Source of the DNA: Faecalibacterium taiwanense | Lineage (GTDB): Bacteria > Bacillota > Clostridia > Oscillospirales > Ruminococcaceae | Direction of reading: 5' to 3' | Assembly (NCBI RefSeq): GCF_036632915.2 | Contig: NZ_CP155552.1 | Span: 372,001-436,000 of the forward strand | DNA: 64,000 nucleotides | Part shown: positions 40,128 to 57,345 of the stretch, in pieces | How the letters are laid out: every line of letters starts with the position of its first letter | Numbering within the stretch: position 1 is the first letter of the stretch | The notes under the pieces: generated by a model | What the model was told of the DNA's origin: nothing | The model's database searches: none | The model's input: the letters and a program-made list of their open reading frames with translations, nothing else | Made by a program: the position numbers and the translations under genes

Positions 40128-40282
40128 GAGGGGCTGTTGCAAAATAAAAATGCGATAGCAGCTTGCACAAAGGAATAGCGCAAAATCAAAAACCCGGAAC
40201 CCTTTCTGAGCCATTTTGGCCCCGAAAAGATTCCGGGTTTTGTGCATGATTTTTCAGAGAGCTATTTTGCAACAGCCTCTTT
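40128..40282. mobile_element. MITE-like element
   Basis: About 150 bases bounded by the inverted repeat GGCTGTTGCAAAATA (40132-40146 and complement at 40263-40277). Inside is a second stem with arms AAACCCGGAA and TTCCGGGTTT. It has no coding capacity. The GGCTGTTGCAAAAT terminus is typical of several IS families, so it is probably mobilised in trans. It marks the left edge of the accessory island. Confidence 0.65.
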
Positions 40283-40303
40283 CATCGCTGCGCAAACGCG
40301 AAG

Positions 40304-40495
40304 TTATTGATCTTCTGAATCCAATCCAAGTTCTTTCAGCTCTTTTTCGTTTTGGATATCTTCATCGGTTTTCTTTCCGGTGATAGCACTATATGCTTCT
40401 TTGATGCCATTTTTAACGGCCCATTTGATAACGAAATACAGCGCAATCAAAATAATAATTGCGGTTCCTCCGCTTATGCCTAATTCATTCCACAT
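40304..40495 (-). CDS. Small single-pass membrane protein
   Basis: 63 aa: an N-terminal hydrophobic helix (GTAIIILIALYFVIKWAV, residues 10-27) and a charged tail (KKTDEDIQNEKELKELG). GGAGG lies upstream of ATG at 40495. It may belong to a small DUF family of gut Firmicutes (DUF6019 from memory, unverified). Function unknown. Confidence 0.6.
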   Translation of the reverse strand: MWNELGISGGTAIIILIALYFVIKWAVKNGIKEAYSAITGKKTDEDIQNEKELKELGLDSEDQ

Positions 40496-40559
40496 GATTC
40501 AATCCTCCAAATGCAGATTTGTTGAACTGAGCCGAGTATACCATACTCTATTAAGAATA

Positions 40560-41005
40560 GCAAAAGGCAGTATACCACTACCATAGTGATACCCTGCCTT
40601 TGCTCGTTCCGGCTCTCGCCCTGTACCGCCCACCACAAAACGGCAGTCATCCCGGTAGACATTCCTAGGCGTTGGGAACCTTGACGGAATCTGACGGCTG
40701 GCGCCTGTACGGGTTGCGTTTGCTGATTTTTCCGCAGCCCCTTGGCAGGGCTTTGAAAAATCAGAACGCTGTCCCAGCCTCGGCTCCCTGTTTCCGCCGC
40801 AGGCGGCGGTCGCCTCCGCTGCTGTTCGAGTCCTGTACCGCCCACCACGAAAAAAAGCCCCCAGACCGAATGGTCTGGCGGCATCTTTCTTGGTAGACAT
40901 TCCTAGCCGTTGGGAACCGCGCACTAACAAACACCCCACTGGGGTGTTTGTTGCCCCGCCTGCGGCGGTGCCGTGCTGTTCGAGTTCTGTACCGTCCGGC
41001 TCTGA
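40560..41005. repeat. Cluster of degenerate repeats carrying tRNA 3'-end-like segments
   Basis: This gap holds no credible gene. It contains three copies of a T-arm/acceptor-like segment on the plus strand: CCTGTACCGCCCACCA (40619-40634), GTTCGAGTCCTGTACCG plus CCCACCA (40824-40847), and GTTCGAGTTCTGTACCGTCC (40978-40997). The second matches the 3' end of the tRNA-Val at 57346 at 23 of 24 bases but in inverted orientation. A 27-base unit starting GGTAGACATTCCTAG occurs at 40654-40680 and 40892-40918. These look like successive integration scars. Confidence 0.55.
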
Positions 41006-42531
41006 CGTGGGTTAGTGGATGACGCAACAAAAAAGCCCCTGACCAAAGTCAGAGGCTCTTGTTTTGGTGGAGCATTCTCCACAGCACTCGAACCTAAAAC
41101 CTCTTCACGAGTGACCATTTTGGCATCGTCCGTGAAGTTGAAATTGAGTACGACCCGGTCATCAAAGACGTAGACCGAGTTGACAAAGGTATCAATGATC
41201 TGCCGCTGGTGTTCCGTGCTGCCCACGTCACCCTTGCGGAATTTCTCAAGCCAGAACCGAATCCATTCACGGGTCAGGACGGGCTTTTTCAGTTCTTCTT
41301 CCAGAATACTGGTGTTCAGAGCTTCCTTCTGGGCTTCCAGCTCGTCCAACCGCTGCTTGGTGGTCGGGGTCAGGATGCCCTGTTCAATGGCTTCCAGAAG
41401 GTTTGCCAACCGCTTCTCCGTATCCCGGAGCTGCTCTTTCAGGACAGGCAGCCGGGTGTTCTCCTGCTGCTGGGCTTCCATAATCAAATCTATCAGCCGT
41501 TCGATGATTTCATCGCTGAAAATCACCTTGATGGCAGTCTCCACCACGAACCGTTCCAACGGCTCTTTGCGGATGGCTTTCAGATCGCAGTGCGCCTTGC
41601 CGTGGCGTTTGGCTTTGCCACACTTGTAGTAATAGTAGGTGTTTCCCATGTGGCTTGTGCCGCTTTCGCCGCCCATGAGCGTACCGCACTTGCCGCAGAA
41701 CAGCTTGGTGGTCAGCAGATAGCTCACATCCTCTTTTGCGGGCCGACCATGGGCAATCCTGTTCTGCTCAAAACGCTGCTGCACCCGGTCAAACAGGTCC
41801 TGGTCAACAATGGCCGGAATGCCGCCCGGCGTCACAATGTCCTTGTAGCGGTATTCGCCGATGTAGCGGCGGTTGCGGAAGATCTGGAAGAAGCTGTTCT
41901 TCACGAACGGCTTCCCGGTACGGGTACGCAGGCCGCGCTCGTTCAGGGATGCGGCAATCTTCTCAGCCGGTTCGCCGTTGGCGTACCGGCTGAAGATCTC
42001 CTGCACAATAGGAGCCGTTTCCGGGTCGATATGGTACAGCCTGTCCTCTTTGCCGATGGTGAAACCCAGCGGCACCACACCACCGTTGTACTTGCACTGG
42101 AGGGCGTTTTCGCGCTCACCGCGCGCCACTTTCAGGGCGAGCTCGGCGGAATAGTATTCCGCCATGCCAATCAGCATACTCTCCACCATAATGCCTTCAG
42201 GCCCCTGCGAGATGGGTTCCATGGCAGACACCAGATGGACACCGTTCTTTTCCAGCTGGTACTTGTAGTTCACGGCATCGAACCGATTCCGGGCAAAGCG
42301 GTCCAGCTTCCAGACCAGAACTACGTCGAAGATTTTCTTTCCGCTGTCCTTGATCATCCGCTGAAAGTCTGGGCGGTCATCCGTTTTGGCAGAGTAGGCA
42401 CGGTCAATGTAGGTGCCGACCACGGTGATGCCGTTCTTCTCGGCGTAGTCCTTGCAGTCGCGCAGCTGTCCCTCAATGGACGCTTCACGCTGGCTGTCGG
42501 ATGAATAGCGGGCGTAGATTACAGCGGTCAT
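40924..42531 (-). CDS. Large serine recombinase (resolvase/invertase superfamily)
   Basis: 535 aa site-specific recombinase. N-terminal catalytic domain with nucleophile Ser in YARYSSDSQREASIEGQ, the DRAYSAKTDDRPDFQ loop and KLDRFARNR; then the recombinase domain (RYIGEYRYK region), a zinc ribbon (CGKC...CGKAKRHGKAHC) and a coiled coil (MEAQQQENTRLPVLKEQLR...). ATG at 42531 with AGAGG eight bases upstream is chosen over a GTG at 42540. The last about 45 residues read through a terminator-like hairpin and tRNA-like repeats, so the original stop was probably earlier. It is likely responsible for moving part of the island. Confidence 0.88.
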   Translation of the reverse strand: MTAVIYARYSSDSQREASIEGQLRDCKDYAEKNGITVVGTYIDRAYSAKTDDRPDFQRMIKDSGKKIFDVVLVWKLDRFARNRFDAVNYKYQLEKNGVHLVSAMEPISQGPEGIMVESMLIGMAEYYSAELALKVARGERENALQCKYNGGVVPLGFTIGKEDRLYHIDPETAPIVQEIFSRYANGEPAEKIAASLNERGLRTRTGKPFVKNSFFQIFRNRRYIGEYRYKDIVTPGGIPAIVDQDLFDRVQQRFEQNRIAHGRPAKEDVSYLLTTKLFCGKCGTLMGGESGTSHMGNTYYYYKCGKAKRHGKAHCDLKAIRKEPLERFVVETAIKVIFSDEIIERLIDLIMEAQQQENTRLPVLKEQLRDTEKRLANLLEAIEQGILTPTTKQRLDELEAQKEALNTSILEEELKKPVLTREWIRFWLEKFRKGDVGSTEHQRQIIDTFVNSVYVFDDRVVLNFNFTDDAKMVTREEVLGSSAVENAPPKQEPLTLVRGFFVASSTNPRQSRTVQNSNSTAPPQAGQQTPQWGVC

Positions 42532-42599
42532 GACGGACACCTCTCATTCTACATCATTGAACGGTGGAGCGTTCTTTCAAAGCACTGTTTCGTATAATG

Positions 42600-42628
42600 T
42601 ATATACCATGTTTTGATGGAGAAATCAA
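42600..42628 (-). promoter_or_regulatory. Promoter of the serine recombinase
   Basis: Minus-strand TTGATT, 17-base spacer, TATATA, about 70 bases before the recombinase start. Confidence 0.6.
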
Positions 42629-42729
42629 GACTTTTTATTATCTTCAGTTTTTCTTTTTGAACAATTGACCCAACAGCCACCCCTCTCGTTGAAATGAGGT
42701 GACTGTTGGGCCGACTTGCTCGGATTCCT

Positions 42730-43467
42730 TTATTCTTCGTTTAGCTGGACGATGGTATTATAAAAGATTTTGTTTGGAATAACGACTTGAAGAACACCCT
42801 TTTTCAAAAGTGCTTCTATGCGTTTCATGACATACCAGTCACTTACCGGAGCAGAAATCGCTTTTAATACGTCTGCGGTAAGTTCACCAACCGAAATAGG
42901 AATTCTCGATACTAAACTAATAATTCTCTGGTCGAAATAATCTATGTTAACGCTTTTAACATCGTTCGCATGCCAAATACGCATGGAGGTGTTTTCGTTT
43001 AATAGCTTTCCCCATCTTTTGGCATACTCAGTAATAGTTTCTTCCGTCAAATACTTTTGTGAGATCTTATCGGTTTTCCCTTCCATAAATTCTTTCAGAC
43101 CTTCTCTGGATGCAAGCAAAATTCTATTTGTACCATACTTTGCTGCATAGTAACAAATATAATAAATGCCGCACCAACAATCGGCAGAACTCCTGACCCA
43201 AACACGCAGTGGCTTATGATTTATCATATCACATTGAACCGCATTCGCTGTACCATGATATTTCGACCACAGTTGTCTAGCTTCAATTTGGCTGTCAGGA
43301 TAATATTCTGAAAGGCAATTCACGAATTGTTTGCAACGATATTCTGAATCGCAAGCATATTGAAGTTCTCCCATTGATAACATAAACGGAAACAACTTTA
43401 CACTTTCGACGATGCCTAAAGCTGCTAACATATTGACATCACTGGGTTCAAAAACAATTTCATCCAT
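42730..43467 (-). CDS. Possible DUF1835/DUF3658-type protein
   Basis: 245 aa, cytosolic, AT-rich gene. The middle (LRVWVRSSADCWCGIYYICYYA) and the later segment (KRWGKLLNENTSMRIWHAND, then YFDQRIISLV and a C-terminal winged-helix-like region) resemble the DUF1835 plus DUF3658 arrangement; this is from memory and moderate. Function unknown. It is the last gene of the minus-strand cassette that begins with agrB. Its composition differs sharply from the chromosomal genes, consistent with transfer. Confidence 0.45.
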   Translation of the reverse strand: MDEIVFEPSDVNMLAALGIVESVKLFPFMLSMGELQYACDSEYRCKQFVNCLSEYYPDSQIEARQLWSKYHGTANAVQCDMINHKPLRVWVRSSADCWCGIYYICYYAAKYGTNRILLASREGLKEFMEGKTDKISQKYLTEETITEYAKRWGKLLNENTSMRIWHANDVKSVNIDYFDQRIISLVSRIPISVGELTADVLKAISAPVSDWYVMKRIEALLKKGVLQVVIPNKIFYNTIVQLNEE

Positions 43468-43479
43468 AGCTGGTCAAAA

Positions 43480-44046
43480 TCATAATTTCGGGATGGTAAC
43501 TTGTGTAGTTGCACTCCAATAGATTGGTTTGCTTGAGCCAACCACTCCAAAATAACACCCAACGCTGCAATCAAGATAAGTTCCAACATCATAGAAGTCA
43601 TATGTATAGGTTGTATTATATATACTTTGTTCTGGAACTAGTGCTGTCGTTGAAAATGGGCAGCTTCGTTCGATGTTATCGGAATAGCTCGTGTAGTAAT
43701 CCGTTCCTGAAACATTTTTTATTAAATCCGGGCCAATACCGACGGTAGTTCCACTCATATAAAAGCCCAATCCATTGGCCTTTGTATAAAGAACTCTCCA
43801 TGTTCCATCAATATACGATACAACTCTTGAGCCGTCTGTATTAGAAACAGGAATGCGCATTGGAACCTCGGCCAAAACATAAAATCCGAGATTCTCTTGT
43901 TCTTGCACAGAAAGATTGAGAAGTTCTTCTATCGAATAATCATCGATCTTTCTCTTATTTCCAGTTGCAAATGCTGGCTGAATGGTCAGGAGAAATAAAA
44001 CCGTGACCAATAGAATGGAAATCAGCCGTTTGATTTTGTTAGTCAT
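43480..44046 (-). CDS. Secreted protein of unknown function
   Basis: 188 aa with a clear signal peptide (residues 1-27, LISILLVTVLFLLTIQPAFA) and likely cleavage after AFA. The mature part has YSIEELLNLSVQEQENLGFYVLAEVPMR-like helical start, then a Tyr/Ser/Thr-rich beta region with two Cys (DCSVGC). No family recognised. AGGAGG precedes ATG at 44046. It lies 12 bases upstream of the DUF1835-like gene. Confidence 0.65.
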   Translation of the reverse strand: MTNKIKRLISILLVTVLFLLTIQPAFATGNKRKIDDYSIEELLNLSVQEQENLGFYVLAEVPMRIPVSNTDGSRVVSYIDGTWRVLYTKANGLGFYMSGTTVGIGPDLIKNVSGTDYYTSYSDNIERSCPFSTTALVPEQSIYNTTYTYDFYDVGTYLDCSVGCYFGVVGSSKPIYWSATTQVTIPKL

Positions 44047-44114
44047 AGTATACTGCCTCCTAATTTATTTTTTTCTTCACTCAATACACTAAAGCTCCAT
44101 TGGAATCACCTTCA

Positions 44115-44252
44115 TTAAATTTTCCCCTTCAGGTGTATACTCCTCGGCAAATAAATGTGAACCATACAAATGCTGAAACTACTAGAATACTGCTGGAATA
44201 GAAAATATTGTGACCTTACACTGCTTTGGGTGATTACTTTGCTTTCCTTCAT
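44115..44252 (-). CDS. Small coupled reading frame, possibly frameshifted
   Basis: ATG at 44252 overlaps the TGA of the upstream membrane-protein gene (ATGA), which suggests translational coupling. The 45-aa frame (MKESKVITQSSVRS...) is not convincing by itself, but the neighbouring frame encodes a hydrophobic stretch SSILVVSAFVWFTFI and the third frame EEYTPEGENLMKVIPMEL. The intact ancestor may have been a small single-pass membrane protein broken by two shifts. Confidence 0.3.
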   Translation of the reverse strand: MKESKVITQSSVRSQYFLFQQYSSSFSICMVHIYLPRSIHLKGKI

Positions 44253-44530
44253 TGAATAGCTAGAACAACAGCTACTATCAAGAACAAAGTTGAAAGCCCA
44301 AGCTGAACCCATGCAATTTTTTCGTTTTCGGCATTGTTACAGCCTTTGGAGGATACTGCCACTTGGATATAATGCACTGCTACGATTCCATATGAGAAAA
44401 ACAAAGAAGCCCAAGCATAAGGTACTGCGCTTTTATCTGTCAATCGGACAAGATTACTAGTCCATACTGAAATGCAGCCCCAAAGGGCAAAAGGAGCAAT
44501 AAGAAAAAAGTTGCTTTTGCCTTTTTTCAT
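44249..44530 (-). CDS. Three-helix membrane protein
   Basis: 93 aa with hydrophobic segments at about residues 8-24, 38-58 and 72-92, separated by short charged loops. No recognised family. It starts two bases after the preceding gene, and its size would suit an immunity or accessory protein for the secreted products nearby, which is inference from context only. Confidence 0.55.
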   Translation of the reverse strand: MKKGKSNFFLIAPFALWGCISVWTSNLVRLTDKSAVPYAWASLFFSYGIVAVHYIQVAVSSKGCNNAENEKIAWVQLGLSTLFLIVAVVLAIQ

Positions 44531-44532
44531 TC

Positions 44533-44943
44533 TTAGCCTCCCACAGCTTGATGGTACGATTTTGTAGTATCCATAAGGTGTCCACCGGAATCATACGAAT
44601 ACAAAATATCATGATAGCAATGGGTATAGTAGCTATTATCATATGCGAAATGGACTTCATACAGCGATTGATTTATAACAACTTTCGATGGAGAAGTAGC
44701 TAGAACCACACTAACCAAAAAGGATCCAACCGTAACAGCAGTGCTTCCCGGCAAGTGCAACCCAGTAATTAAAAGGCTTGCTGCAGTTTCAACTCCACCA
44801 ATCTCAATTTGCGCAATCGCCGTATTGTCAATTGTATAGCTGAGATTTGATACAAATATATGCTTATACTGTGATCCTGTAACATCACTTCCAACAGTGG
44901 CTCCCCTTGTTTGAGGCATAGATTTTGAAGTTGCTAATTTCAA
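44533..44943 (-). CDS. Unknown protein of the agr-linked cassette, start uncertain
   Basis: 136 aa if the TTG at 44943 is used, but no ribosome site lies at proper distance. If the TTTTT run just upstream (about 44943-44948) had one more T, the ATGATG at about 44955 would be in frame after AAGGAAAGG and the protein would begin MMSFLKLATSKS. The body is rich in Ser/Thr/Val with a hydrophobic stretch (VTVGSFLVSVVLA) and a Tyr/His-rich C-terminus (YTHCYHDILYSYDSGGH). Function unknown. Confidence 0.5.
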   Translation of the reverse strand: MKLATSKSMPQTRGATVGSDVTGSQYKHIFVSNLSYTIDNTAIAQIEIGGVETAASLLITGLHLPGSTAVTVGSFLVSVVLATSPSKVVINQSLYEVHFAYDNSYYTHCYHDILYSYDSGGHLMDTTKSYHQAVGG

Positions 44944-44972
44944 AAAGACATCATGATCACATTTTCCTTTCC

Positions 44973-45143
44973 TTATTTTGATTTGATTGCTTTTACGACT
45001 AAATAAATGACCAGTATGCCGATGCAGAGCGAAATAATTGTCAATGCCTCTGCCGTTGCATTAAGGCAAGCACCAATAAAATAAACCAATACCAAAAATG
45101 CAACAAAAGCGATAAGAAGCAGCACCCATTTGTTTTTTTTCAT
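44973..45143 (-). CDS. 56-residue hydrophobic peptide in the agrD position
   Basis: ATG at 45143 has a perfect GGGAGGT site and starts 12 bases after the agrB stop, where agrD normally lies. The product MKKNKWVLLLIAFVAFLVLV...IKSK has two hydrophobic segments (residues 6-24 and 34-52) joined by IGACLNATAEA, with Cys26 and Cys40. It lacks the amphipathic leader, cysteine-containing core and acidic tail of known AgrD pheromones. It may be a divergent precursor or a different small membrane protein. Confidence 0.6.
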   Translation of the reverse strand: MKKNKWVLLLIAFVAFLVLVYFIGACLNATAEALTIISLCIGILVIYLVVKAIKSK

Positions 45144-45155
45144 GTTATCACCTCC

Positions 45156-45743
45156 CTATCTACAAAAGTTGGCATTAAATTTTTGTTGAACCAAAGGAAT
45201 TGTTGAGAATACAATCAATACCCATTTGGAGAGATAGTAGCAAACTACATGACGTGTATACGGAAGCACATTAAAAATGGCAAGCAGGAAATCTATTGAC
45301 GAAAGAACAGATGCGACCATCTTGTAACTTGACCGCTTCTTTTCACTTAAAGGCTTATTCTTTGCTTCGATAGGTGAGAGAAAGATAGAGATGCCCAAAA
45401 GAGCTACTGTTGTCAGGATACGGAAAAGGTGATTTGCTGCGATTGCCTTACTTAGCAAAATGCAGATAAGTGCCAGTCCGGAGAATGCCAAATAGCATCT
45501 GGTGTGCGATGTTGCATGGTATCCGCCAATGTAGATTCGCTGTGGGATAAACCCAATCAAAAATGAAAGTGCGTACCGCACATCACCACACACAACAGCG
45601 ATTAAAACAACAAGCAGAACGCTCACAACAGATGATATGAGCAACTCGTACCCATAGACATACGCATCCGCCTTTGCTTCATCTATCACTTTTTGCTCGC
45701 AGAAAAGACGGACTGATTTTTGAGACAGCGTGCGTTCCCACAT
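45156..45743 (-). CDS. agrB: AgrB-like peptide-processing membrane protease
   Basis: 195 aa accessory gene regulator B family protein, which cleaves and cyclises the AgrD pheromone precursor at the membrane. The catalytic pair is visible in GGYHATSHTRCYLAF: His and Cys seven residues apart, as His77/Cys84 in S. aureus. About five hydrophobic segments follow. AAGGTGG lies ahead of ATG at 45743. It is the first gene of a minus-strand unit, divergent from the regulator/kinase pair. Confidence 0.85.
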   Translation of the reverse strand: MWERTLSQKSVRLFCEQKVIDEAKADAYVYGYELLISSVVSVLLVVLIAVVCGDVRYALSFLIGFIPQRIYIGGYHATSHTRCYLAFSGLALICILLSKAIAANHLFRILTTVALLGISIFLSPIEAKNKPLSEKKRSSYKMVASVLSSIDFLLAIFNVLPYTRHVVCYYLSKWVLIVFSTIPLVQQKFNANFCR

Positions 45744-45779
45744 TGCAGTTGCGCCACCTTATCTTCTGATTTTTGCTTC

Positions 45780-45888
45780 ACTGTATCATAAATTTCAGCA
45801 AAATCAAGAGGTTTGGCAAAACTGGTCGTTCTGGTGACAAAAGTGGTAGGTCAGGCTACTTGTAAGGAGCCTTTGCACAGTCTATAAT
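45780..45888. promoter_or_regulatory. Divergent agr promoters with a LytTR-type direct repeat
   Basis: Minus strand: TTGATT (45802-45807), 16-base spacer, TACAGT (45780-45785) toward agrB. Plus strand: TTGTAA (45860-45865), 17-base spacer, TATAAT (45883-45888) toward the regulator. Between them CAAAACTGGT (45817-45826) and CAAAAGTGGT (45838-45847) repeat with a 21-base period, two DNA turns, as AgrA and other LytTR regulators require. Confidence 0.65.
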
Positions 45889-45922
45889 AGTAGCAGGACA
45901 TTATTTTGTGGAGGTTGTCGAA

Positions 45923-46621
45923 ATGCTGAAGTACCACGTTGCAGTCTGCGATGATGAGAAATCAGACCTTGATGGCATTGTTCAAAGCGTCCAGCAGTAC
46001 GATGTGCAAGGCTGCTTTGACATTGAAACTTACATGGATGGAAACGAACTTCTGAGCGAATTGCAAATGCAGAAGAAATCCTTTGATCTGCTTCTTCTCG
46101 ATATCGAGATGCCATCCAACGGTTTTCAGCTGGCGCAGTCTTTGATTCAGATGGAGAAGCATCCTTTGGTGGTATTTGTCACGAAGCGGCATGAGTACGC
46201 TGTGCAGGGATATGGCATTGCATTCCGCTACCTTGTCAAACCTTTGGATCAGACGCTGTTCGCTGCGGCAATGGATGCCGTCCTTCAGGAACTGAACTCC
46301 AAACATTTCACGATCGAATACGATGGTGTTACCATGTCCTTGGAAACATCGGACATTTACTTTCTGGAAAGCCACGGACATAAAGTTCTGATTCACTGCA
46401 AGGAGCAAGACCTTACATTGCGAATGAGCATTCCTGAAGCCTTGGAGCAGCTTCCCAAACGGTGCTTTGTGTCACCACACAAAAGTTATCTCGTCAACAT
46501 GGAACACATTGTTTACGCTACGGGAACCGCTGTTTTTCTTTCCAGCGGACATCAGCTGCCGATCAGCAGGAGGAAGCGTCAGGAGTTCAATCAGATCTTC
46601 AACGCTTATTTGGGAAGATGA
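45923..46621 (+). CDS. LytTR-family response regulator (AgrA-like)
   Basis: 232 aa. Receiver domain (residues 1-120) with acidic pocket CDDE, phospho-acceptor Asp in LLLLDIEMP and Lys in YLVKPL; LytTR DNA-binding domain from about 135 (FLESHGHKVLIHC, CFVSPHKSYLVNM). ATG at 45923 is set by GGAGG at 45910-45914. Its stop overlaps the start of the kinase gene (ATGA), so the pair is co-translated. Expected to bind the direct repeat upstream and drive both divergent units. Confidence 0.9.
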   Translation: MLKYHVAVCDDEKSDLDGIVQSVQQYDVQGCFDIETYMDGNELLSELQMQKKSFDLLLLDIEMPSNGFQLAQSLIQMEKHPLVVFVTKRHEYAVQGYGIAFRYLVKPLDQTLFAAAMDAVLQELNSKHFTIEYDGVTMSLETSDIYFLESHGHKVLIHCKEQDLTLRMSIPEALEQLPKRCFVSPHKSYLVNMEHIVYATGTAVFLSSGHQLPISRRKRQEFNQIFNAYLGR

Positions 46622-47887
46622 TGCTTTATTATTTCGTTGAGTTTGCAGAGAGCTTTGCCAACATTGCCCTGTTGCTGCTTTTTATCGGTCGGCTGTTTCC
46701 CAAAAAGGAGCCCGTCTCAAGGTGGTTCTATGGCCTATGTTGCACTCTTGATTGCTGGGCAGTGTGCTTTGAGTTTATTCCCGGATTGGGTGACGCAGCG
46801 CACGATCTATCTTTTAGTTGGCGGATTTTTCCTTGCATTGCTGTTCTATGAGGTTCGACCGTGGCAGGCGGTTTTTGCAAGCGGAGCTTTCTTCACACTG
46901 ATTGCTTTGGTGGAAGTGCTTGCAATGCTTCTGATTGGGCTGCGTATCCCGGATACCGACATTCTAATGCAGGCTGGGGCAGCACGGTTGGTCTATGTTG
47001 TTTTTTCAAACCTGATTCAAATTCCACTCGTAGTCCTGATCTCACATTTTTTCAGCCGAAAAGGAAATGCTCTGCGTATCCTATGGCTGCTGCCGATCAT
47101 TGCGATTCAAATCGCAAGTATTGCTGTCTGTTATGTGGCACAGTATCATGCTGCGGATGAGTATTTCCCGGATTATATGGTCGGTCTTATGGCGGTGCTT
47201 CTCCTTATAAACATCCTGATCGTGTTCTATGTGGAAGCTCTCCGGGAAAATGAACTGGAAAAATTCAAAGTTAAGTTCAACGAACAGCAGTACAATCTTC
47301 AAATGGAATACTACCAGCAGCTCAAAGAACGCCAGGAAGAAGTCCGTTCTCTGCGGCATGATGTGAAGAAATACATCCTGGCGATGCAGGCAGTTGCAGA
47401 ACACGGTGATACCGAAGAACTTCACAAGATTGCGCAGGCTGCCACGGATGTTTTCGAGCGTTCCACAAATATTTCTGCGGTCGGAAATCCTGTTGTTGAT
47501 GCTCTTTTGAATTATTACTTACGAATTGCGGAAAGGAATAACATCAAGGTCAATCTGGATGTGACGATTCCTGAAGTTTTGACGATCTCATCGCTGTCTC
47601 TGAGCATCATCCTCGGAAATACATTTGACAATGCCATCGAAGCCTGTTGCGACCTGCCAGCGGAACAGAGAATCATTCATCTACAGCTGCGCAAGCAGTA
47701 TCGAAGCCTCTTCTATCGGCTGGAAAACCCATACAGTGATACTTCTCGCGGAATCCGCATCGGAGAGTATCACGGTTACGGACTAAAAAATATAAATCGT
47801 ATCGTTCAGGAGAACCATGGTGACTTCTATACGAAAAAGAAAGACGGTGTGTTTACCGTCCAAGTCCGCCTGAACTGCGAAAATTAA
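46621..47887 (+). CDS. GHKL sensor histidine kinase (AgrC-like), frameshifted
   Basis: About 420 aa after repair. The ATG at 46621 overlaps the regulator stop and gives the first helix MLYYFVEFAESFANIALLLL; the remaining five to six helices, the dimerisation helix with His (VRSLRHDVKKYI), the N box (LGNTFDNAIEAC) and the G box (GYGLKNINRI) are in the next frame. Removing one base, for example from AAAAA at 46702-46706, joins them. A fallback start is the ATG at 46730 after AAGGTGG. GHKL kinases of this type sense AgrD-derived cyclic peptides. Confidence 0.8.
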
Positions 47888-47968
47888 AACATTCTCCTAA
47901 AACATTGCTTTGCTTTTGCTTGTACTTTGTGTGTTTCATTCATCTGATGTATTCATTATCCTGAAGTG

Positions 47969-48350
47969 TTGACACACATCAATACTTATGTTATCATTCC
48001 CAACAAATCCACAGCGATTTCTGTAAAGAAACGATTCTGTGCGGTTTTATTTCCTGCGAAGATTTACCGCCCCGCAACACACCCGATCATTTTGCCGTCT
48101 GTTTCACCCGACAAAATCCTTCGCCTGTACTGCGTGGGCGGTATTTTCTTTTTGGGGAAGCCGTACCTTGAGAATTTCATGAGCCGTCCGAGCGTGATAC
48201 CGGCTTTTCGGCCAACGCCGCTGCAAAACAGGGGCAGGAACTTCGTTCGGAGCAAACGGCGATCAACATACACGAGCAGCGGAACTCTCTACTTATTTTT
48301 GCGTCTTAACAATTCGGAAACAACTTTCGGAAATGCGTTTTGAGCGCAGC
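47969..48350 (+). promoter_or_regulatory. Strong promoter and long leader ahead of the mob genes
   Basis: TTGACA (47969-47974), 17-base spacer, TATCAT (47992-47997). The following 350 bases hold no convincing gene. A stem ACCGCCCC (about 48067) with GGGCGGT (about 48136) followed by ATTTTCTTTTT looks like an attenuator or terminator. The gap 47888-48571 otherwise contains the repeat at 48355. Confidence 0.45.
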
Positions 48351-48354
48351 GGTG

Positions 48355-48485
48355 GAGAGCAAGAATCGTCCCGTGGCCACAAATTTTCAATTCTTGAAAA
48401 TGTTGTGCTCCACCGGGACTTCACATCTGCAACTCTTGCGAGTTTTGATGTGATCTTGTTGGGGCGTACCTGCCCCAAACCCTGC
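48355..48485 (+). repeat. Long direct repeat, left copy (possible oriT region)
   Basis: Two blocks shared with 54045-54144: a 47-base block starting GAGAGCAAGAATCGTCC (46 of 47 identical) that ends in the palindrome ATTTTCAA-N3-TTGAAAAT, and a block CTTGTTGGGGCGTACC onward containing TTGGGG-N8-CCCCAA then ACCCTGC. It lies just upstream of mobC, the usual place for oriT. Confidence 0.6.
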
Positions 48486-48571
48486 TCATATTCGCACCTT
48501 GCGGTGCGAAAGAACGGCGTGTCGTGCTTACATAGCTCCACCGAGGAGCTAGCGAAACGACAGGAGGTACA

Positions 48572-49006
48572 ATGACCGAAACGAATGTTCAACCGATTCC
48601 TAGCAATTCCCAGCACCACGACACGCCGAACAACAAAACGCACGTCATCAAGTTCCGTGTGACAGCGGAGGAAAAAACGTCACTGGAACTCACTTGCAAA
48701 CTCCTAAATCTCTCCCTCTCCACTTTTATCCGCCGTGCCATCCACAACGTCAAGATCGAGAAAACAATCATCGTTGCCGGCGGCGGAGAAGAAACCCTGA
48801 CCGCTGTTTCCACTTTGCTTGCCCAGTGCAGCAAGGTGGGCAGCAATCTCAACCAGCTTGCAAGGCACTTCAATTCCGGCGGTGCGGACACCGAGCAGAT
48901 CCGGGCGAAACTCCTTGACGAACTTGCAGACCTGACCGCATTCCGGCTGCACGCCGAGAAAGTTCTGGGTGAACTGTATGGCAACGCTCAAGCATATCGC
49001 CTCTAA
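48572..49006 (+). CDS. mobC: MobC-like relaxosome protein
   Basis: 144 aa plasmid-mobilization accessory protein. N-terminal ribbon-helix-helix (KFRVTAEEKTSLELTCKLLNLSLSTFIRRAI) for oriT binding, and the C-terminal MobC motif (LLAQCSKVGSNLNQLARHFN). AGGAGGT is directly upstream. The relaxase gene overlaps its 3' end by 29 bases, so both are translated together. Confidence 0.87.
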   Translation: MTETNVQPIPSNSQHHDTPNNKTHVIKFRVTAEEKTSLELTCKLLNLSLSTFIRRAIHNVKIEKTIIVAGGGEETLTAVSTLLAQCSKVGSNLNQLARHFNSGGADTEQIRAKLLDELADLTAFRLHAEKVLGELYGNAQAYRL

Positions 49007-50513
49007 GAATTCGGACTACACCGCCATCGAAGCGTACCTCGTTTACCAGCACGACGCGTTCACCGGAAAGCAACTTCTGGATGAGCACGGCAAGCCGAAG
49101 CTGCGGGATTCGTACCTGCTCGACACCCTTGAGTGCGGCGATTTCTCGTTCGCAACGGCCTGTCTGCTGGCAAACCGCAAGTATGGCAAGAACACCCAAC
49201 GCGATGATATTAAGAGCCATCAGTATATCATCAGCTTTGACCCACGCGATGCAGCCGACAACGGCTTGACCATGGAAAAAGCACAGGCACTTGGCCTGAA
49301 ATTCTGCGAAGAAAACTTCTCCGGTCACCCCGCCATCGTCTGCACTCACCCGGATGGGCATAACCATTCGGGAAACATCCACGTCCACATTGTGATCGGC
49401 AGTATCCGCACACGAGAGGTGGAACGTAAGCCCTATATGCAAAAGCCCCGTGACTGGCGTGAGGGTATGAAGCACTCCAGCACAGCCCAGACCATGCGGC
49501 ACTTGCGTGTTGAGGTCATGGAACTGTGCGAGGGTGCCGGACTGTACCAGATCGACCTGCTCAACGGCTCGAAAGAGCGCGTGAGCGAAGCTAAGTATTG
49601 GGCGCGTAGGCGCGGTCAGTTGAAACTTGACCGTGAGAACGCAGCCCTCACCGCAGCTGGACAGCCGCCCCAGCAGAAGAAGTTTGAAACCGCAAAGGAA
49701 ACCTTGCGGAAACAGATCTCGGATGTGCTGGACACCGCAATGAGCTTTGAAGATTTCTCGGACAGGCTCTTGCAGCAGTACGGAATCACGGTCAAGGAAA
49801 GCCGTGGTCGGCTCAGCTATCTGCCTGCCGGAAGGACAAAGTTCATCCGGGCGCACAGCATCGGTGACAAGTTCGATAAGGCGGCAGTGCTTGCCACGTT
49901 GCAGGCAAACGCCGAACGCGAACCCAAGGCGCAGTTCAAGCAGGATACCATCGGGAAACTGATCGACATCCAGTCGAAAATGACCGAAGGCAAGGGCATT
50001 GGCTATAAGCGTTGGCTCACGAAACACAATCTCAAAGTTATGGCACAGACCGTGAAGCTTCTGCAGGAAAAGAACTTGACCGACGAGGACGCCCTGAACC
50101 AGCGCATCGCTGAACTGGAAACCAAGTATCACGACTCGCTGGCGGTGGTGAAAGACCTCGAAGGTCGCATGAAAGCCAACAATGAGCTGCGCTATCACAT
50201 CGCAGCCTACACCAGCACCAAGAATGTCGCACAGCAGTTAAAGACTGCCAAACGACCCGCAGCCTTTGAGGAGCAGCACCGTGCAGAGCTGACAGCATAC
50301 CGGGTGGCAGCAGCCTATTTCAAGGCAAACAACATCACCAAGCTGCCCAGCCCGAAAAAGCTGGAAGCCGAGTATGCGCAGCTGGCATCCGAAAAGGCAA
50401 AGTTCTACGAACAGTACAAGGAAGCCAAGGAAGAACTGTTCAAGCTGAAAACCGCAAAGCAGAATGTTGCGTCCTTTTTCCGGGAGGAAGAACAGACGCA
50501 GCAGGAGAGATAA
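48978..50513 (+). CDS. mobA: Relaxase/mobilization nuclease (MobA/VirD2 family)
   Basis: 511 aa relaxase that nicks oriT for conjugal transfer. N-terminus: Tyr residues in SDYTAIEAYLVY, HQYIISFDPRD (motif II) and the metal-binding histidines in HPDGHNHSGNIHVHI (motif III, HxDxxH-like with HVH). A long coiled-coil C-terminus follows (KKLEAEYAQLASEKAKFYEQ). ATG at 48978 is chosen within the overlapping 3' end of mobC; a GTG at 48969 is in frame. No type IV secretion genes are present, so a helper element is required. Confidence 0.88.
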   Translation: MATLKHIASKNSDYTAIEAYLVYQHDAFTGKQLLDEHGKPKLRDSYLLDTLECGDFSFATACLLANRKYGKNTQRDDIKSHQYIISFDPRDAADNGLTMEKAQALGLKFCEENFSGHPAIVCTHPDGHNHSGNIHVHIVIGSIRTREVERKPYMQKPRDWREGMKHSSTAQTMRHLRVEVMELCEGAGLYQIDLLNGSKERVSEAKYWARRRGQLKLDRENAALTAAGQPPQQKKFETAKETLRKQISDVLDTAMSFEDFSDRLLQQYGITVKESRGRLSYLPAGRTKFIRAHSIGDKFDKAAVLATLQANAEREPKAQFKQDTIGKLIDIQSKMTEGKGIGYKRWLTKHNLKVMAQTVKLLQEKNLTDEDALNQRIAELETKYHDSLAVVKDLEGRMKANNELRYHIAAYTSTKNVAQQLKTAKRPAAFEEQHRAELTAYRVAAAYFKANNITKLPSPKKLEAEYAQLASEKAKFYEQYKEAKEELFKLKTAKQNVASFFREEEQTQQER

Positions 50514-50525
50514 AGGAGTGTGCGT

Positions 50526-51410
50526 ATGATCAATCTGAAAATTGACCCGGAGTTCCAGTCCCAGATTCCTCCTCTGACCGATGATGAATTCAAGCAGCTT
50601 GAAGAAAATATCCTGAAAGAGGGCAAGCTGCTTTCTCCTTTGATCGTTTGGGGCAATACCCTTGTTGATGGACACAACCGTTATGCCATCCTCCAGAAGC
50701 ACCCGGAGATTTATTTCTCCACCATGCCGCTCCCGTTTGAAAGCCGGGAAGAAGTTCTCGCTTGGATTTGTAAAAATCAGCTGGGGCGGCGCAACCTCAC
50801 ACCGGAGCAGAAGAAGTTCCTCATTGGAAAGCAGTACAGTGTGGAGCATCGAAAGCCCGGTGGAAACGGCAACAACCAGCACACGGCTGCTGCCAAGAAA
50901 ACTGCCCCGGAGGAATTGTGTCAAATTGACACAATTCCTCCCACCTCTGCGGAAGCGAGCATCCGCAAGCAGATTGCGGAGCGGAACAATGTCAGCGAAT
51001 CCTACGTTGCCCGTTCTGAAAAATTCATGTGTGGCGTAGAGATCATGGAACAGATGGTGCCCGGTATGCAGGAGAAAATCCTGTCCGGGCAGTTCAAAGT
51101 CCGTGATGCTGATATGCACCGCCTTGCCAGAGCCGATTTTCCGAACCGCAAGCAGATCGTGCACGAGATTCTGCACCCGGAGGACCGCCCCGCTCCGCAG
51201 TCGAGCTACTCACACTACTCTGGAATCAACTACTCCGCGCTGGAAGTCGCTGTCCGGCGGATTCAGCAGGACTTTGATTTTTTGATGAGATACTTGCCTA
51301 AGCTACCGGACGATTCCTACGCCAAAACTGAAACGCTAAAAATCCTCAAGCAGCACAAAGCGTATATGGCACAGTTTGAAGAACTGCTGAACGATGAAAA
51401 AATCGCATAA
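50526..51410 (+). CDS. ParB/Srx-domain protein of a mobilizable element
   Basis: 294 aa. N-terminal ParB-like domain (residues 8-95, LTDDEFKQLEENILKEGKLL and the VDGHNRYAI motif), a middle helix-turn-helix-like region (NNVSESYVARSEKF), and a helical C-terminus. Such proteins on integrative elements may act in segregation or as regulators. ATG at 50526 with AAGGAG is chosen; a GTG at 50520 is in frame. It starts 12 bases after mobA. A perfect 33-base palindrome lies inside the gene. Confidence 0.75.
   Translation: MINLKIDPEFQSQIPPLTDDEFKQLEENILKEGKLLSPLIVWGNTLVDGHNRYAILQKHPEIYFSTMPLPFESREEVLAWICKNQLGRRNLTPEQKKFLIGKQYSVEHRKPGGNGNNQHTAAAKKTAPEELCQIDTIPPTSAEASIRKQIAERNNVSESYVARSEKFMCGVEIMEQMVPGMQEKILSGQFKVRDADMHRLARADFPNRKQIVHEILHPEDRPAPQSSYSHYSGINYSALEVAVRRIQQDFDFLMRYLPKLPDDSYAKTETLKILKQHKAYMAQFEELLNDEKIA
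50909..50941. repeat. Perfect palindrome within the ParB-like gene
   Basis: Two 16-base arms, GGAGGAATTGTGTCAA and TTGACACAATTCCTCC, around a single A. It encodes part of PEELCQIDTIPP between the ParB-like and helix-turn-helix regions. Confidence 0.8.
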
Positions 51411-51553
51411 CGACAGGCACTTGTAAGCCATCAACGAGCCACCAGCCGCAAGTGCAGGGCGGAAAGCATCCGCGCCCTTGCGCCTGATAAAAATTGGAAC
51501 TTTGATTTTCTCGCCCGGCTTTGCCACGGTGGGACGATCAAAGGAGCGTGCGT

Positions 51554-52090
51554 TTGAACAAAAAGAAAAAGTCCACAAACACTTCCCCTTATCCCGATGA
51601 AGTCATCGACCGTCTGGCACGGGCGTTCTACCCGGCCATCCTTGCCTGCTGGAACAGCGAGGAAGGACAGCGAGAGTTTGCCGCATGGCAGACAGAACAG
51701 GCTCATCTTGCAGGAAAAGAAAAACAGGAAGTTCCCGCTAGCAGAGTTCCCATAAAACAGTATTTGCAAAAGTTCCCTAAATGGGGAAGATTTGGCGTGA
51801 CTTCGGTCACGCCTTTTCTTTGCTTCCAGTTCATCCAGAGGGATGTACCCCAGCCCATCGTACTTGATATGGATGTGCTGCACCCGCTTTCCGCTGGACT
51901 TATCCGGGGCATCCACATAGATAGCGGACACCAGTTCACGGAGAGCATAGGGGTGAGTTCTTCAATATGGACGTACTTGTGCGCTTTCTGGACGAACTTT
52001 TCAATATTCTCGATTTGCTGTTCCTGTACTTCGATTTCCTGCTGGATAGAGAGGACGTCCTCTTCCAGCTGCTTCTGCTCGGCATCGTAA
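51554..52090 (+). CDS. Small mobile-element protein, 3' end uncertain
   Basis: TTG at 51554 lies seven bases after AAGGAG and starts KKKKSTNTSPYPDEVIDRLARAF, a plausible soluble protein to about residue 60. From about 51790 the frame runs antisense through the serine recombinase, and a hairpin GGCGTGAC/GTCACGCC with TTTTCTTT at 51793-51818 looks like the gene's terminator. The natural stop was probably near 51780 in another frame. No family recognised. Confidence 0.4.
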   Translation: MNKKKKSTNTSPYPDEVIDRLARAFYPAILACWNSEEGQREFAAWQTEQAHLAGKEKQEVPASRVPIKQYLQKFPKWGRFGVTSVTPFLCFQFIQRDVPQPIVLDMDVLHPLSAGLIRGIHIDSGHQFTESIGVSSSIWTYLCAFWTNFSIFSICCSCTSISCWIERTSSSSCFCSAS

Positions 52091-53443
52091 CTCTGGCTCA
52101 TCATGTCAAAACGTTCATCGCTCAGCTTTCCACTGGCGTTGTCCTCGTAGATCTTCATGAACAGCCGTTTGAGATCTGCGATCCGCTTCTCATTCCGGGC
52201 AAGCTGCTTCTTCAGGACGGTCAGCTTTTCGGTGCTTTCCACCCGAAGCTGCTCCTCCATGACCTTGCGGAAGTAGTCTTCATGGCAAAGGATGTAGTCC
52301 GTTACCTGCTGGATATGGTTCAGCACACGGCCTTCCAGAACCTTTACCCGGATGAAGTGTCCCTTGCACTTGCTCCCGTTCTTCTTGTGCAGAGAGCAAT
52401 CAAAGAAGTCTTGACTGAAGTCCCTGTTATTGGACGAACCATATTGCATCTTGGAACCGCAGTCAGCGCAGTAGACCATACCGGAGAAAATGCTGCTCTT
52501 GCCTGTCCGGGTCATGCGGTGACGCTGGTTACGAATCTCCTGAACCTTTTCAAACACATCATCGTCAATAATGCGCTCATGTGTATCCGGGAAGATAGCC
52601 TGATTTTCCACAGGATTCAGATGTCTCTTTTTATCCCAGATAGAGTTAGTATAGGTCTTGAAATTGACTGTGCAGCCAGTGTACTCCCGGCGTTCCAGAA
52701 TCAAACTTACTGCTCTTTTATCCCAGCGATAAGGGTCTTCCGGGGCAGGTGCGTTTGTACTCCGGCCATGGCTCAACTTGTAGGCGGTAGGGGTCAGAAC
52801 CTTATCTTCCCACAGTTGGTCTCGCAATTTGGGTCGGCCCACGGCCTTCCATGCACATGGAGAAGATGCGCTTCACGACCGCAGCCGCTTCCAGATCAAC
52901 AAGCCAATGCTTCGGGTTCTCCGGGTCTTTTACATAGCCGTACGGCACATTGACCGTCAGCGGTACGCCACGCTCTCCCTTGGCCTTCTGAACGGCCCGA
53001 ATCTTGCGGCTGGTATCGCGGGCGTAAAACTCGTTGAACCAGTTCTTAATGCCCGCAAAATCGTTGTTTACGCTGTTCGGGTCAATGGTGTCGTAGTTGT
53101 CGTTAATGGCAATGTAGCGAACGCCATACTGGGGAAAGGTGAAGTTGGTGTACAGACCTGTCAAGGCAGAATTGCGCCCCAGTCGGGATAAATCCTTCGT
53201 GATAACGATTCCTACACGCCCTGCTTCGATCTCGACCAGCATACTCTGAAAGCCGGGACGGTCATAGTTCGTGCCGGAGTAGCCATCATCCACAAAGAAC
53301 ACCGGGTTCGGGAAGTAGTTCTTCTTGGCGTATTCCAGAAGGATGGCCTTCTGGTTCTCAATGGACAGGCTTTCGCCGAGCCGTGCGTCCTCTTGCGACA
53401 GTCGGCAGTAAAGTGCGGTGATTTTATTCGTTGCTCCAGACAT
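51703..53443 (-). pseudogene. Large serine recombinase (TnpX-like), two frameshifts
   Basis: About 550 aa when repaired. Catalytic domain: nucleophile Ser in YCRLSQEDARLGES, GYSGTNYDRPGFQ, TKDLSRLGRN. Then the recombinase domain (RREYTGCTVNFK), zinc ribbon (CADCGSKMQYG) and a coiled coil (VLKKQLARNEKRIADLK). An extra base at 52818-52819 (GG) and a missing one in GGGG at 51950-51953 break the frame; the latter restores TPYALRELVSAIYVD, then KSSGKRVQHIHIKY. ATG at 53443 with AAGGAGG is preferred to the ATG at 53530. It probably excises the mobilizable unit, as TnpX does for Tn4451. Confidence 0.82.
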
Positions 53444-53526
53444 TGTTGTGTCCTCCTTACTCTGTGGAGCAACTGTCAGTACAGGATTGGTTACCGGGTC
53501 AAGTATAGCAGAATTGGGCGCAGTTG

Positions 53527-53990
53527 TCATTCGTCTGCACCCTCATCTTCAAATTTTTGCTGGGCGTTCTTGGCAACAATGCGCTCCAGCTTCTTCAAAA
53601 GGATTCCTTGCCCTCATAGCTGCCGGTCACGGTGTAGGTGGTGTGACCGACTTTCTCCGTGGTGGTCAGTTCTGGAATCCAGAAAGCGGACAGGTTCTTG
53701 ACATGGAGGTTGCCGTTCTCGTCCACATAAGAGCCGTGTTTCTTCTGCTCTTCGGTCAAGGGCTGCCGCTTGAAATAGATTTCATTTTCGGAGATGCTCA
53801 CGGTTTCGCTGGCTTGCTCCTTCGGGGTGTCGTCATACAGCTGGGCAAAAAATGCCAGTGCATCCTCGGGTGAGTCTTCCTCCATGAGCTGCTCGAAAAC
53901 TCGCTGCTCCTCTGCCGAGAGGTTGTTCCATGCGGCATCCAACTCCTGCTCGTTGGCCGCGTTGACAAAGGCTTCGATTTCTTTTTTCAT
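53527..53990 (-). CDS. Conserved transposon-associated protein, frameshifted near the end
   Basis: About 154 aa after repair. Acidic helical N-terminus (EIEAFVNAANEQELDAAWNNLSAEE) and a C-terminal region NGNLHVKNLSAFWIPELTT then VGHTTYTVTGSYEGKES. Adding one base to AAAA at 53597-53600 extends it through LKKLERIVAKNAQQKF to a TGA that overlaps the ATG at 53530, a typical coupled junction before such recombinases. It may correspond to TnpW-type proteins of Tn4451-like elements. Function unknown. Confidence 0.6.
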
Positions 53991-54044
53991 GGTGCATCCT
54001 CCTTTGGCTGCGGAAAGCGTTTTTCAAAAAGTATGGGTTTTCGT

Positions 54045-54144
54045 GAGAGCAAGAATCGTCCCGTGGCCACAAATTTTCAATACTTGAAAATTCCTGCCCC
54101 TTTGGGACTGCTTCTTGTTGGGGCGTGCCTGCCCCAAACCCTGC
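54045..54144 (+). repeat. Long direct repeat, right copy
   Basis: Same two blocks as 48355-48485, closer together. With that copy it brackets the 5.7 kb mob/ParB/recombinase module. It lies between the divergent-facing ends of the transposon protein gene and yjdF. Confidence 0.65.
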
Positions 54145-54164
54145 CAGATAAAAGCAAAGGGGCA

Positions 54165-54581
54165 TTATCTGCCCCGATGCTTTTCCTTTCGCTTCTGCTG
54201 TTTCAGTTCAAACTGACGCTGCTTTTCTGCTTCGCGTTGTTTACGGCTAAGTGCTTTTCGCACCAGCTTATTTTCTTCTCGCTGCATTTGCAACGCCTGC
54301 TGTGACTTTGTACCGATTCCTGTGGCAACTGTTTCCTTTCGGATTTGTCGTTGCAATCGCTTTGGGTTCACAGACTCTTTCTTTACAACTGTCTCAACAG
54401 ATGGACTGAAGCGCAGCCGACTGTAATTTTTGAGCAGATACTCCCAGACTTCATAGTCCTTTGGTTCTGGACCAAACACGACTTTACACACTGAAAGCTT
54501 TCTTCTCTCAATACGTTCAAATACTCCGATCCAGAATGGATCCTCAAAAAATACAGTCAGCTTTGTAGAATCAATGTCCAT
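54165..54581 (-). CDS. yjdF: YjdF family protein (DUF2992)
   Basis: 138 aa. The N-terminus (KLTVFFEDPFWIGVFERI), VVFGPEPKDYEVWEYLL and the basic, Gln/Lys/Arg-rich coiled-coil tail (KQREAEKQRQFELKQQKRK) are characteristic of YjdF/DUF2992. Its biochemical role is unknown. In other Firmicutes it is controlled by the yjdF riboswitch, which responds to azaaromatic compounds (established), so it may belong to toxin resistance. AGGAGGG lies ahead of ATG at 54581. A GGGGCA/TGCCCC hairpin with T run overlaps the stop. Confidence 0.85.
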   Translation of the reverse strand: MDIDSTKLTVFFEDPFWIGVFERIERRKLSVCKVVFGPEPKDYEVWEYLLKNYSRLRFSPSVETVVKKESVNPKRLQRQIRKETVATGIGTKSQQALQMQREENKLVRKALSRKQREAEKQRQFELKQQKRKEKHRGR

Positions 54582-54589
54582 AACGAAAC

Positions 54590-54735
54590 CCTCCTGAAAT
54601 AAATCCTTACAGGAACGGACAACCCGGAGGGAAGGTTACTTACCTACACCGTGCGGTGTAGACGGCTGGGCTACCTACCAGCTCTGGCATCTCTCAGAAA
54701 GAAATGCGTTGCGTTTTTATCCTGCTTTTATTATA
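54590..54735 (-). ncRNA. Candidate yjdF riboswitch leader
   Basis: The 5' leader of yjdF contains a conserved-looking AAAAACGCAACGCATTTC start, a GAGCTGG/CCAGC pairing, and a strong hairpin CTACACCGCACGGTGTAG, then a pyrimidine-rich stretch before the ribosome site. Gene identity plus structured leader make the yjdF motif (Rfam class) likely; I could not score it against the model. Confidence 0.6.
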
Positions 54736-54753
54736 TAAAGCACATCCCTGTGC

Positions 54754-54781
54754 ATTATATCTGCCTTAATTGGTTTTCCAA
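54754..54781 (-). promoter_or_regulatory. Promoter of the yjdF transcript
   Basis: Minus-strand TTGGAA, 16-base spacer, TATAAT, placing the transcript start just before the structured leader. Confidence 0.6.
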
Positions 54782-54843
54782 GTGAAGTATACCACACTCG
54801 TGGTCAAATGACCACCCATATATACGAGAATTTGGCCGTTTTA

Positions 54844-54884
54844 CTGCGTACGTGCGTACCAACCTTCCGTACGCACGTACGCAG
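54844..54884. repeat. Perfect 15-bp inverted repeat
   Basis: Arms CTGCGTACGTGCGTA and TACGCACGTACGCAG with an 11-base spacer, no T run after it. It lies between divergent transcription units and may be an operator, recombination or replication site. Confidence 0.75.
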
Positions 54885-55109
54885 CGATTCGCCCGAAACG
54901 TACCTTATACAACCGTTCCCCTCGGAGAGCCCACGGCACTTTGCAGGCCGCAGGGATGAAAGTGTCATAGTGGGTTATTACACTTCCGCAGAAGTGCCTT
55001 TTCCTCGCCGCAAACAGCCGGGGTGCGCCTTTGTGGAGCTTTCTATGCGGCGAATCCACATCGTCCACAGGCGATGTGAGCAGGGATTCTAAGGGGCGCA
55101 GCACCTTTG

Positions 55110-55390
55110 GCACACGACTTTGGTACAAAGTCTAGTGTGTTACACCTTGCCAGAGGTGTACACGTTCCTGAAATGCAAAAGCCCCATACCCAACACCTTG
55201 ACGGTGCGGACATGGGACTTGATGCTTCCTCGGCCTAGCCGGGTACTCGTAACCAATCCTGACAGGCAGTTGCCGTGTCATTTCTCGAAAACTGTTTTAC
55301 GAATACCCAGCACTGGGGAACTCCCTGCCTTACTTATCGTGTGTGGATTTTTGCAGGGTGCGTCCTTCGGGGCGCACCCTGTTTTTGTGT
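55110..55390 (+). ncRNA. Candidate structured RNA ending in a terminator
   Basis: A 280-base non-coding stretch with several consecutive stems: ACACCTT/AGAGGTGT, GCCCCAT...ATGGGAC enclosing CACC/GGTG, CGGCCTAGCCG, and TGACAGGCA/TGCCGTGTCA. It ends in a clear terminator at 55357-55388 (GGGTGCG/CGCACCC, then TTTTTGTG). It lies upstream of the reverse transcriptase on the same strand. Could instead be decayed mobile-element sequence. It covers much of the 54582-55496 gap. Confidence 0.35.
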
Positions 55391-55496
55391 TTAAAGAGAA
55401 ATCACTGTGTAACCTTGACGGGCAAAGGTAAGTGTTATTTAATGTATTTGAAGCCTTTTTGAAAACAGTACATATCATAGGAGTGTGAGTTGAATA

Positions 55497-57040: not shown

Positions 57041-57195
57041 CATGTAAGAAGCTCCTCTCATAGAACATAGAAAGATGTACAACTATGGTTGTAGCACTGT
57101 GGTAATATACGGCATATCCTCTGTCTAGTCACATAAGATGGAGAACTTACATGATATAGGAGCATCAAGTTCTCAGGCTGCAAACTTGATGCAAA

Positions 57196-57246
57196 GCAAA
57201 AGGCAGGGCACCACCTTCATGGTGATACCCTGCCTTTATTCGTTCT
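57196..57246. repeat. Right copy of an island-end hairpin repeat
   Basis: GCAAAAGGCAGGGCACCACC...ATACCCTGCC forms a hairpin and is about 80 percent identical to 40560-40610 in the same orientation, so related hairpins flank the island. A further stem CGTACCCGAACCC/GGGTTCGAGTACG lies at 57299-57338, after the tRNA-Val. The gap 57041-57653 holds these, the tRNA and the ruvC promoter. Confidence 0.6.
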
Positions 57247-57345
57247 TGCTTACCGTTCTGCGTACTCTCGCCGCAGAACCTCCGATAAACAAAAAACGTA
57301 CCCGAACCCTTTCTCGTAAAGAATCGGGTTCGAGTACGAACTGTA

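Follow-up and report, generated by a model that had tools for sequence, protein, structure and literature searches.

Probable loss of the signal gene by deletion from an agr-like locus on a mobile island of Faecalibacterium taiwanense

The agrBD/agrCA loci of Bacillota combine the AgrB peptidase and its AgrD signal precursor with a GHKL histidine kinase (AgrC) and a LytTR response regulator (AgrA). AgrD is described in PMC12312760 as having an N-terminal amphipathic leader and a charged C-terminal tail. An agr-like locus is found at positions 44973 to 47887 of a 64,000 nt stretch of the Faecalibacterium taiwanense genome (contig NZ_CP155552.1, positions 372,001 to 436,000; this whole stretch is called the window here), the genome being assembled as one contig of 2.96 Mb. 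It shares AgrB, a LytTR regulator, and a GHKL kinase with the described loci, and its close relatives also encode an AgrD with a hydrophobic leader, a cysteine-containing ring region, and the tail YQPDVPESL. Its differences are that the clade places agrD two genes past agrB, that the window has lost agrD by deletion, and that the window kinase is frameshifted. By gene comparison, the window most probably (at roughly 0.92) holds a deletion derivative of an ordinary Faecalibacterium agr locus, decayed, inside a mobile island. Among the titles listed in searches of the Faecalibacterium literature for AgrD, quorum sensing, or accessory gene regulator, none concerns this system.

The case for a deletion comes from the relatives. 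A 56-residue protein (p56; 44973..45143, minus strand) is encoded next to agrB, and was proposed in the preliminary description as a possible new class of signal in the agrD position. It is encoded in nine of 31 genus genomes, own genome included, and AgrB of 93% or higher identity occurs in exactly these nine. All nine loci were examined: that of the window (L040), L004 to L009 (from genomes G009, G014, G008, G016, G013, and G012, respectively), L033, and L034. Close Faecalibacterium relatives have agrB followed by p56, the gene of a secreted DUF5626 protein, then a canonical agrD, and further secreted-protein genes. The AgrD, 48–52 residues long, is encoded two genes past agrB in six of the nine (L004–L007, L033, and L034), and in five of these six AgrB is 100% identical to that of the window. 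Compared with L006, the window sequence is 100% identical up to L006 position 6793 and 99.9% identical again from 7871, with four bases, ATGA, common to both blocks. Because two matching blocks flank the gap with this 4-base overlap, 1,081 bp of L006 are missing from the window, just after p56; blastn blocks against L004–L006 place the junction at 44951..44954. Two genes, DUF5626 and agrD, lie in the lost segment, as does the 5′ part of a third, which encodes a 254-residue secreted protein. A 3′ remnant of the last (44533..44943, minus strand) still matches the C-terminal part by tblastn, with the signal peptide and N-terminal part gone; the gene is full length in L004, L005, L006, and L033. 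No AgrD was found at the window locus, and it is the removal of the DUF5626 gene and agrD that makes p56 appear to occupy the agrD position.

In the relatives, regulator and kinase read one way, and agrB, p56, the DUF5626 gene, agrD, and a second secreted-protein gene the other. Comparison shows that the window has lost 1,081 bp at the 4 bp microhomology, and with them two of these genes (DUF5626 and agrD) and the 5′ part of the second secreted-protein gene, and that its kinase gene is frameshifted. Given the deletion of agrD and the broken kinase, the locus would no longer be able to make its own cyclic peptide, and sensing through its own kinase has probably been lost. On this account p56 would not be the substrate of AgrB.

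AgrB (45156..45743, minus strand, 195 aa) is unbroken and matches PF04647 at 118.2 bits (E 3.5e-34; cut-off 23 bits), with the expected catalytic pair in place, as the preliminary description had it: the translation includes GGYHATSHTRC, with His and Cys seven residues apart. No sequence relative in the PDB was found below E 0.6. The regulator and kinase were correctly described as divergent to agrB. The regulator (45908..46621, plus strand), AgrA-like, has matches to PF00072 (46.2 bits) and PF04397 (68.6 bits). The kinase gene (46618..47887, plus strand), AgrC-like, retains a GHKL domain (PF14501), but its frame is broken near codons 27–38, where tblastn returns two overlapping pieces in different frames, so that the membrane sensor and the GHKL domain are not encoded in one continuous frame, as they are in an AgrC-type kinase. 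In the other eight p56 loci the kinase matches the 422-residue kinase of a paralogous locus (see below) end to end, without a stop. With its kinase frameshifted and agrD absent, the locus can no longer be called complete, as it first was.

Both the missing agrD and the frameshift could in principle be assembly errors, with the locus whole in the strain itself: it is known from an assembly, and none of the other eight loci has the kinase frameshift. This seems highly improbable, however. The assembly is a single contig, in which this AgrD family is found at the paralog alone; the junction has a clean 4 bp microhomology; and two other genomes are deleted differently at the same place.

If p56 were nevertheless a new class of signal precursor, AgrB might cleave out a peptide around one of its two cysteines, Cys26 or Cys40. 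Its constancy of position would fit this. When the agrB neighborhoods of related genomes were scanned for p56, as the preliminary description had proposed, it proved to be the direct neighbor of agrB in nine of nine, although in L034 an IS110-family transposase gene (PF01548; L034:7157–8332, minus strand) lies between the two, with the p56 ribosome site retained. The sequence features first noted were also all found: a strong Shine-Dalgarno-like sequence (AGGGAGGTGATAACATG) before the start codon, two hydrophobic segments, and the two cysteines. There are 51 database homologs at E ≤ 0.01, some of them fragments or fusions; since p56 also recurs in nine genus genomes, it is more than a chance open reading frame (ORF). 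An alignment of full-length members (ten rows) shows both ends to be invariant. Cys40 is present in all 36 homologs where it can be read (15 of the 51 are not readable there), and this conservation, together with the ribosome site, marks p56 as a maintained gene.

The same comparisons do not support a signal precursor, because six of the other eight p56 loci hold a canonical AgrD two genes past agrB; a canonical AgrD beside this AgrB in close homologs was what the preliminary description itself had named as refuting its proposal. Agr loci with agrB and agrD and no p56 also exist, both at the paralog and in G015. As for p56 itself, Cys26 is C in 34 of the 44 homologs covering the position, R in nine, and Y in one, and so does not provide the conserved Cys (or Ser) nucleophile expected in the signal region of an AgrD. 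An AlphaFold2 model (mean pLDDT 76, pTM 0.41) has helices at residues 3–27 and 31–55, with both cysteines inside predicted helices and Cys40 in a predicted membrane helix. As had been remarked from the outset, p56 has neither an amphipathic leader nor an acidic tail: it consists of two hydrophobic helices, and its C-terminus, VVKAIKSK, is basic and without a Pro-containing motif.

Profile searches agree. TIGR04223 (cut-off 19 bits) is matched by the AgrD of L006 at 43.1 bits and by that of the paralog at 40.1 bits, while p56 has no NCBIfam match at E ≤ 1 and hence does not reach the same cut-off; nor did it ever come up with an AgrD profile built iteratively from the loci's own ORFs, a set that included p56. 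In a survey of 396 family genomes, 78 of which have AgrB, the best matches led to 27 agrB loci from other genera; with the same profile, 24 of these yielded AgrD-like ORFs. Two F. prausnitzii proteins among the AgrD homologs in the databases, P0201 and P0174 (the latter fused to the start of p56), are named “cyclic lactone autoinducer peptide” by NCBI. Among 40 such homologs the ring, its extent set by analogy with a table in PMC12312760, reads CCFTA in 20, CGFTA in 12, CFFTA in two, and CAFTA in one, with five truncated or altered.

Other searches gave p56 no family assignment either: it has no family match that clears a curated cut-off (the one to DUF5325, E 0.009, falls short), no PADLOC match other than RTasSLATT at E 0.096, no PHROGs match at E ≤ 0.01, and no relatives in viral contigs. 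A role as AgrD signal precursor is discounted as very unlikely, and the specific case of a new class cleaved by AgrB around Cys26 or Cys40 is extremely improbable. Instead, p56 is most likely an ordinary neighbor of agrB. The preliminary description had also allowed that p56 might be some other small protein, with the real signal encoded elsewhere; it is indeed a separate, conserved neighbor, but the locus has lost its own agrD, and no AgrD of this family was found in the genome (E ≤ 0.1) other than that of the paralog.

The paralogous agr locus (L010) lies ~1.37 Mb from that of the window and appears from its sequence to be intact: agrD directly follows agrB, the kinase is an unbroken 422 residues, and p56 is absent. 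Locus L035 of G015 is arranged in the same way. The two AgrB proteins of the genome are 82% identical and the two regulators 99.2%; at the DNA level the loci align at 92.4% through regulator, kinase, and part of agrB, the similarity ending in the 3′ part of agrB. Besides the position of agrD, the lack of p56, and the intact kinase, L010 is distinguished from the p56 loci by its AgrD ring, CGFTA rather than CCFTA. The divergent promoter region of the window locus contains direct repeats 21 bp apart (45814..45849), also present at the paralogous locus, which from their spacing we take to be a candidate LytTR regulator site. Because these repeats are common to both loci and the regulators are 99% identical, the paralog may drive the agrB promoter, and the agrB-p56 unit of the window may still be under its control.

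A related locus in another genome, G018 (L036:6460–8786), has an unbroken regulator (81%) and kinase (77%); agrB is matched over its first 45 residues only, and the secreted-protein gene after it is of another kind. The search for this AgrD family found none in that genome. One AgrD-like match there was discarded as spurious: it is an ORF of 31 residues that lies in the promoter region and lacks the Pro motif. On plasmids, a search limited to near matches found none to the window locus.

Loss of agrD has occurred more than once. It is missing from three of the nine copies (those of the window, L008, and L009), by three different deletions. The L008 deletion, of 1,442 bp, also replaces the p56 stop codon, adding one residue; L009 has lost 1,393 bp including agrD, plus 551 bp downstream. 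A 701 bp deletion in L034 removes most of the 254-aa gene and spares agrD. Over all nine copies, agrB, p56, and the regulator are unbroken in nine, the kinase in eight, agrD in six, and the DUF5626 and 254-aa genes in four each. Just downstream of the 254-aa remnant in the window is a gene for a small membrane protein of 93 aa (m93; 44249..44530, minus strand), with no family match above a cut-off; it is unbroken in eight copies, and 100% identical to that of the window in seven other p56 loci. In L007 it is absent, and other cargo replaces the 254-aa gene. A secreted 188-aa protein (43480..44046, minus strand) belongs to the same cargo.

Such a pattern recalls the pneumococcal blp “cheaters”: according to PMC4739721, strains that do not secrete the pheromone still respond to it and keep immunity. 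By analogy, strains here would drop the signal and the secreted proteins and keep the listening and protective parts. The likeness lies in the p56 loci that have lost agrD and secreted-protein genes. The losses are by separate deletions, the fourth of which (in L034) strikes the 254-aa gene and not agrD; no AgrD of this family is found at E ≤ 0.1 anywhere in the other two agrD-less genomes, G013 and G012, whose kinases are unbroken; and all five deletions in isolates spare m93, for which the chance would be ~7e-4 were they placed uniformly downstream of p56. There are differences, however. The kinase of the window is broken too, so that its own listening part is not kept, and the p56 loci are known from genes alone, where blp has bacteriocin and immunity. 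Four database proteins (P0003, P0028, P0047, and P0050) are deletion junctions that cut p56 and/or m93, contrary to a protective role for either. The retention of agrB and p56 is itself uninformative, because these two genes were the queries that found the loci, and the loss pattern has no control gene. A producer/non-producer system of this kind is rather unlikely.

Database proteins also include fusions, in P0174, P0198, and P0172, of the start of p56 or agrB to AgrD. As most are single sequences, the fusion proteins serve as leads only. In four of the database proteins (P0047, P0048, P0050, and P0174) the sequence breaks after p56 codon 21, resuming at four different downstream points of the locus; P0174 continues in frame into AgrD, and its longest contig is 114 kb. 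A deletion hotspot at codon 21 is not claimed, as no control gene was surveyed and other singletons have tails that we take to be sequencing artefacts. The tails of P0012, P0022, and P0049 have no match, and that of P0023 a weak one. Insertions are also found. In L004 (3867–4118), and likewise in L005, an insert of ~250 bp with hairpin-like ends breaks the DUF5626 gene near its 20th codon; it looks like a small non-coding mobile element.

The best lead on p56 itself is that DUF5626 proteins, which are secreted, appear to be paired with small membrane proteins. The DUF5626 protein of the p56 loci is a 178-residue secreted protein, its gene interrupted in L004 and L005. Among the 31 genus genomes, eight of eight DUF5626 matches adjoin a small membrane ORF: p56 in six cases, and another, 46-aa ORF in two. 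The 46-aa ORF and the DUF5626 gene form an overlapping pair in G003 (L097:1238–1908), which adjoins what reads by eye as part of a GHKL kinase; L007 has this pair too. Outside the genus, a single DUF5626 match was found among the 396 family genomes, with a 57-aa hydrophobic ORF just downstream. On these associations, p56 could be an immunity-like or export partner of the DUF5626 protein, which we put forward tentatively, at a little under even odds. The literature searched does not mention DUF5626. A secreted protein lost from the window was also compared with Zea (Lmo2686, PDB 4K15), a secreted hexameric RNA-binding protein: sequence identity is 19%, and the structure model used is a moderate one (pLDDT 70, from a four-row alignment).

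The locus was originally placed on a mobilizable island, and comparison with G028, a genome of the same species, bears this out. The two sequences match as far as 40241 of the window and resume matching at 57346, the place between being taken in G028 by ~1 kb of different sequence; because the flanks match on both sides, ~17 kb (40242..57345) can be regarded as inserted in the window. AgrB has no match in G028 at E ≤ 0.001. Within the island are a relaxase (48969–50513, PF03432) and serine recombinases (40924–42540, 52802–53530, and 51703–52842; PF00239 and PF07508). Control of island transfer by the signaling, raised as a possibility in the preliminary description, would be conjecture. At its right end is a reverse transcriptase of defence type RT_UG31 (55631–57040, plus strand; PADLOC E 2.8e-131, PF00078).

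Some observations weigh against decay of an ordinary locus by deletion, with p56 as a bystander. The deletion and the frameshift are both known from one assembly alone. Two of the fusion proteins, P0174 and P0198, carry the first p56 codons in frame with AgrD. The invariance of Cys40 where readable (36 of 36) and the good p56 ribosome site point to a maintained gene, and the lone case outside Faecalibacterium of a DUF5626 gene with a small hydrophobic ORF could be due to chance.

An apparent new class of signal is thus removed by showing the deletion behind it, and the agrB neighborhood of any single genome can mislead in the same way. Two points still merit attention: agrD and secreted-protein genes have been lost repeatedly in this clade, and small membrane proteins appear to be paired with DUF5626 proteins. 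The mobile agr locus might represent a natural producer/non-producer polymorphism, in which the signal gene and adjacent secreted proteins (one with a Zea fold) are repeatedly deleted while agrB, the regulator, and protective small membrane proteins are kept, and in which non-producers may respond to or survive signaling neighbors; taken as a whole this is unlikely. Intact, signal-less, and kinase-broken versions of the locus exist in sequenced strains, and if recurrent loss holds in larger surveys, the way in which peptide quorum sensing loses its signal would become tractable in a commensal of the human gut.

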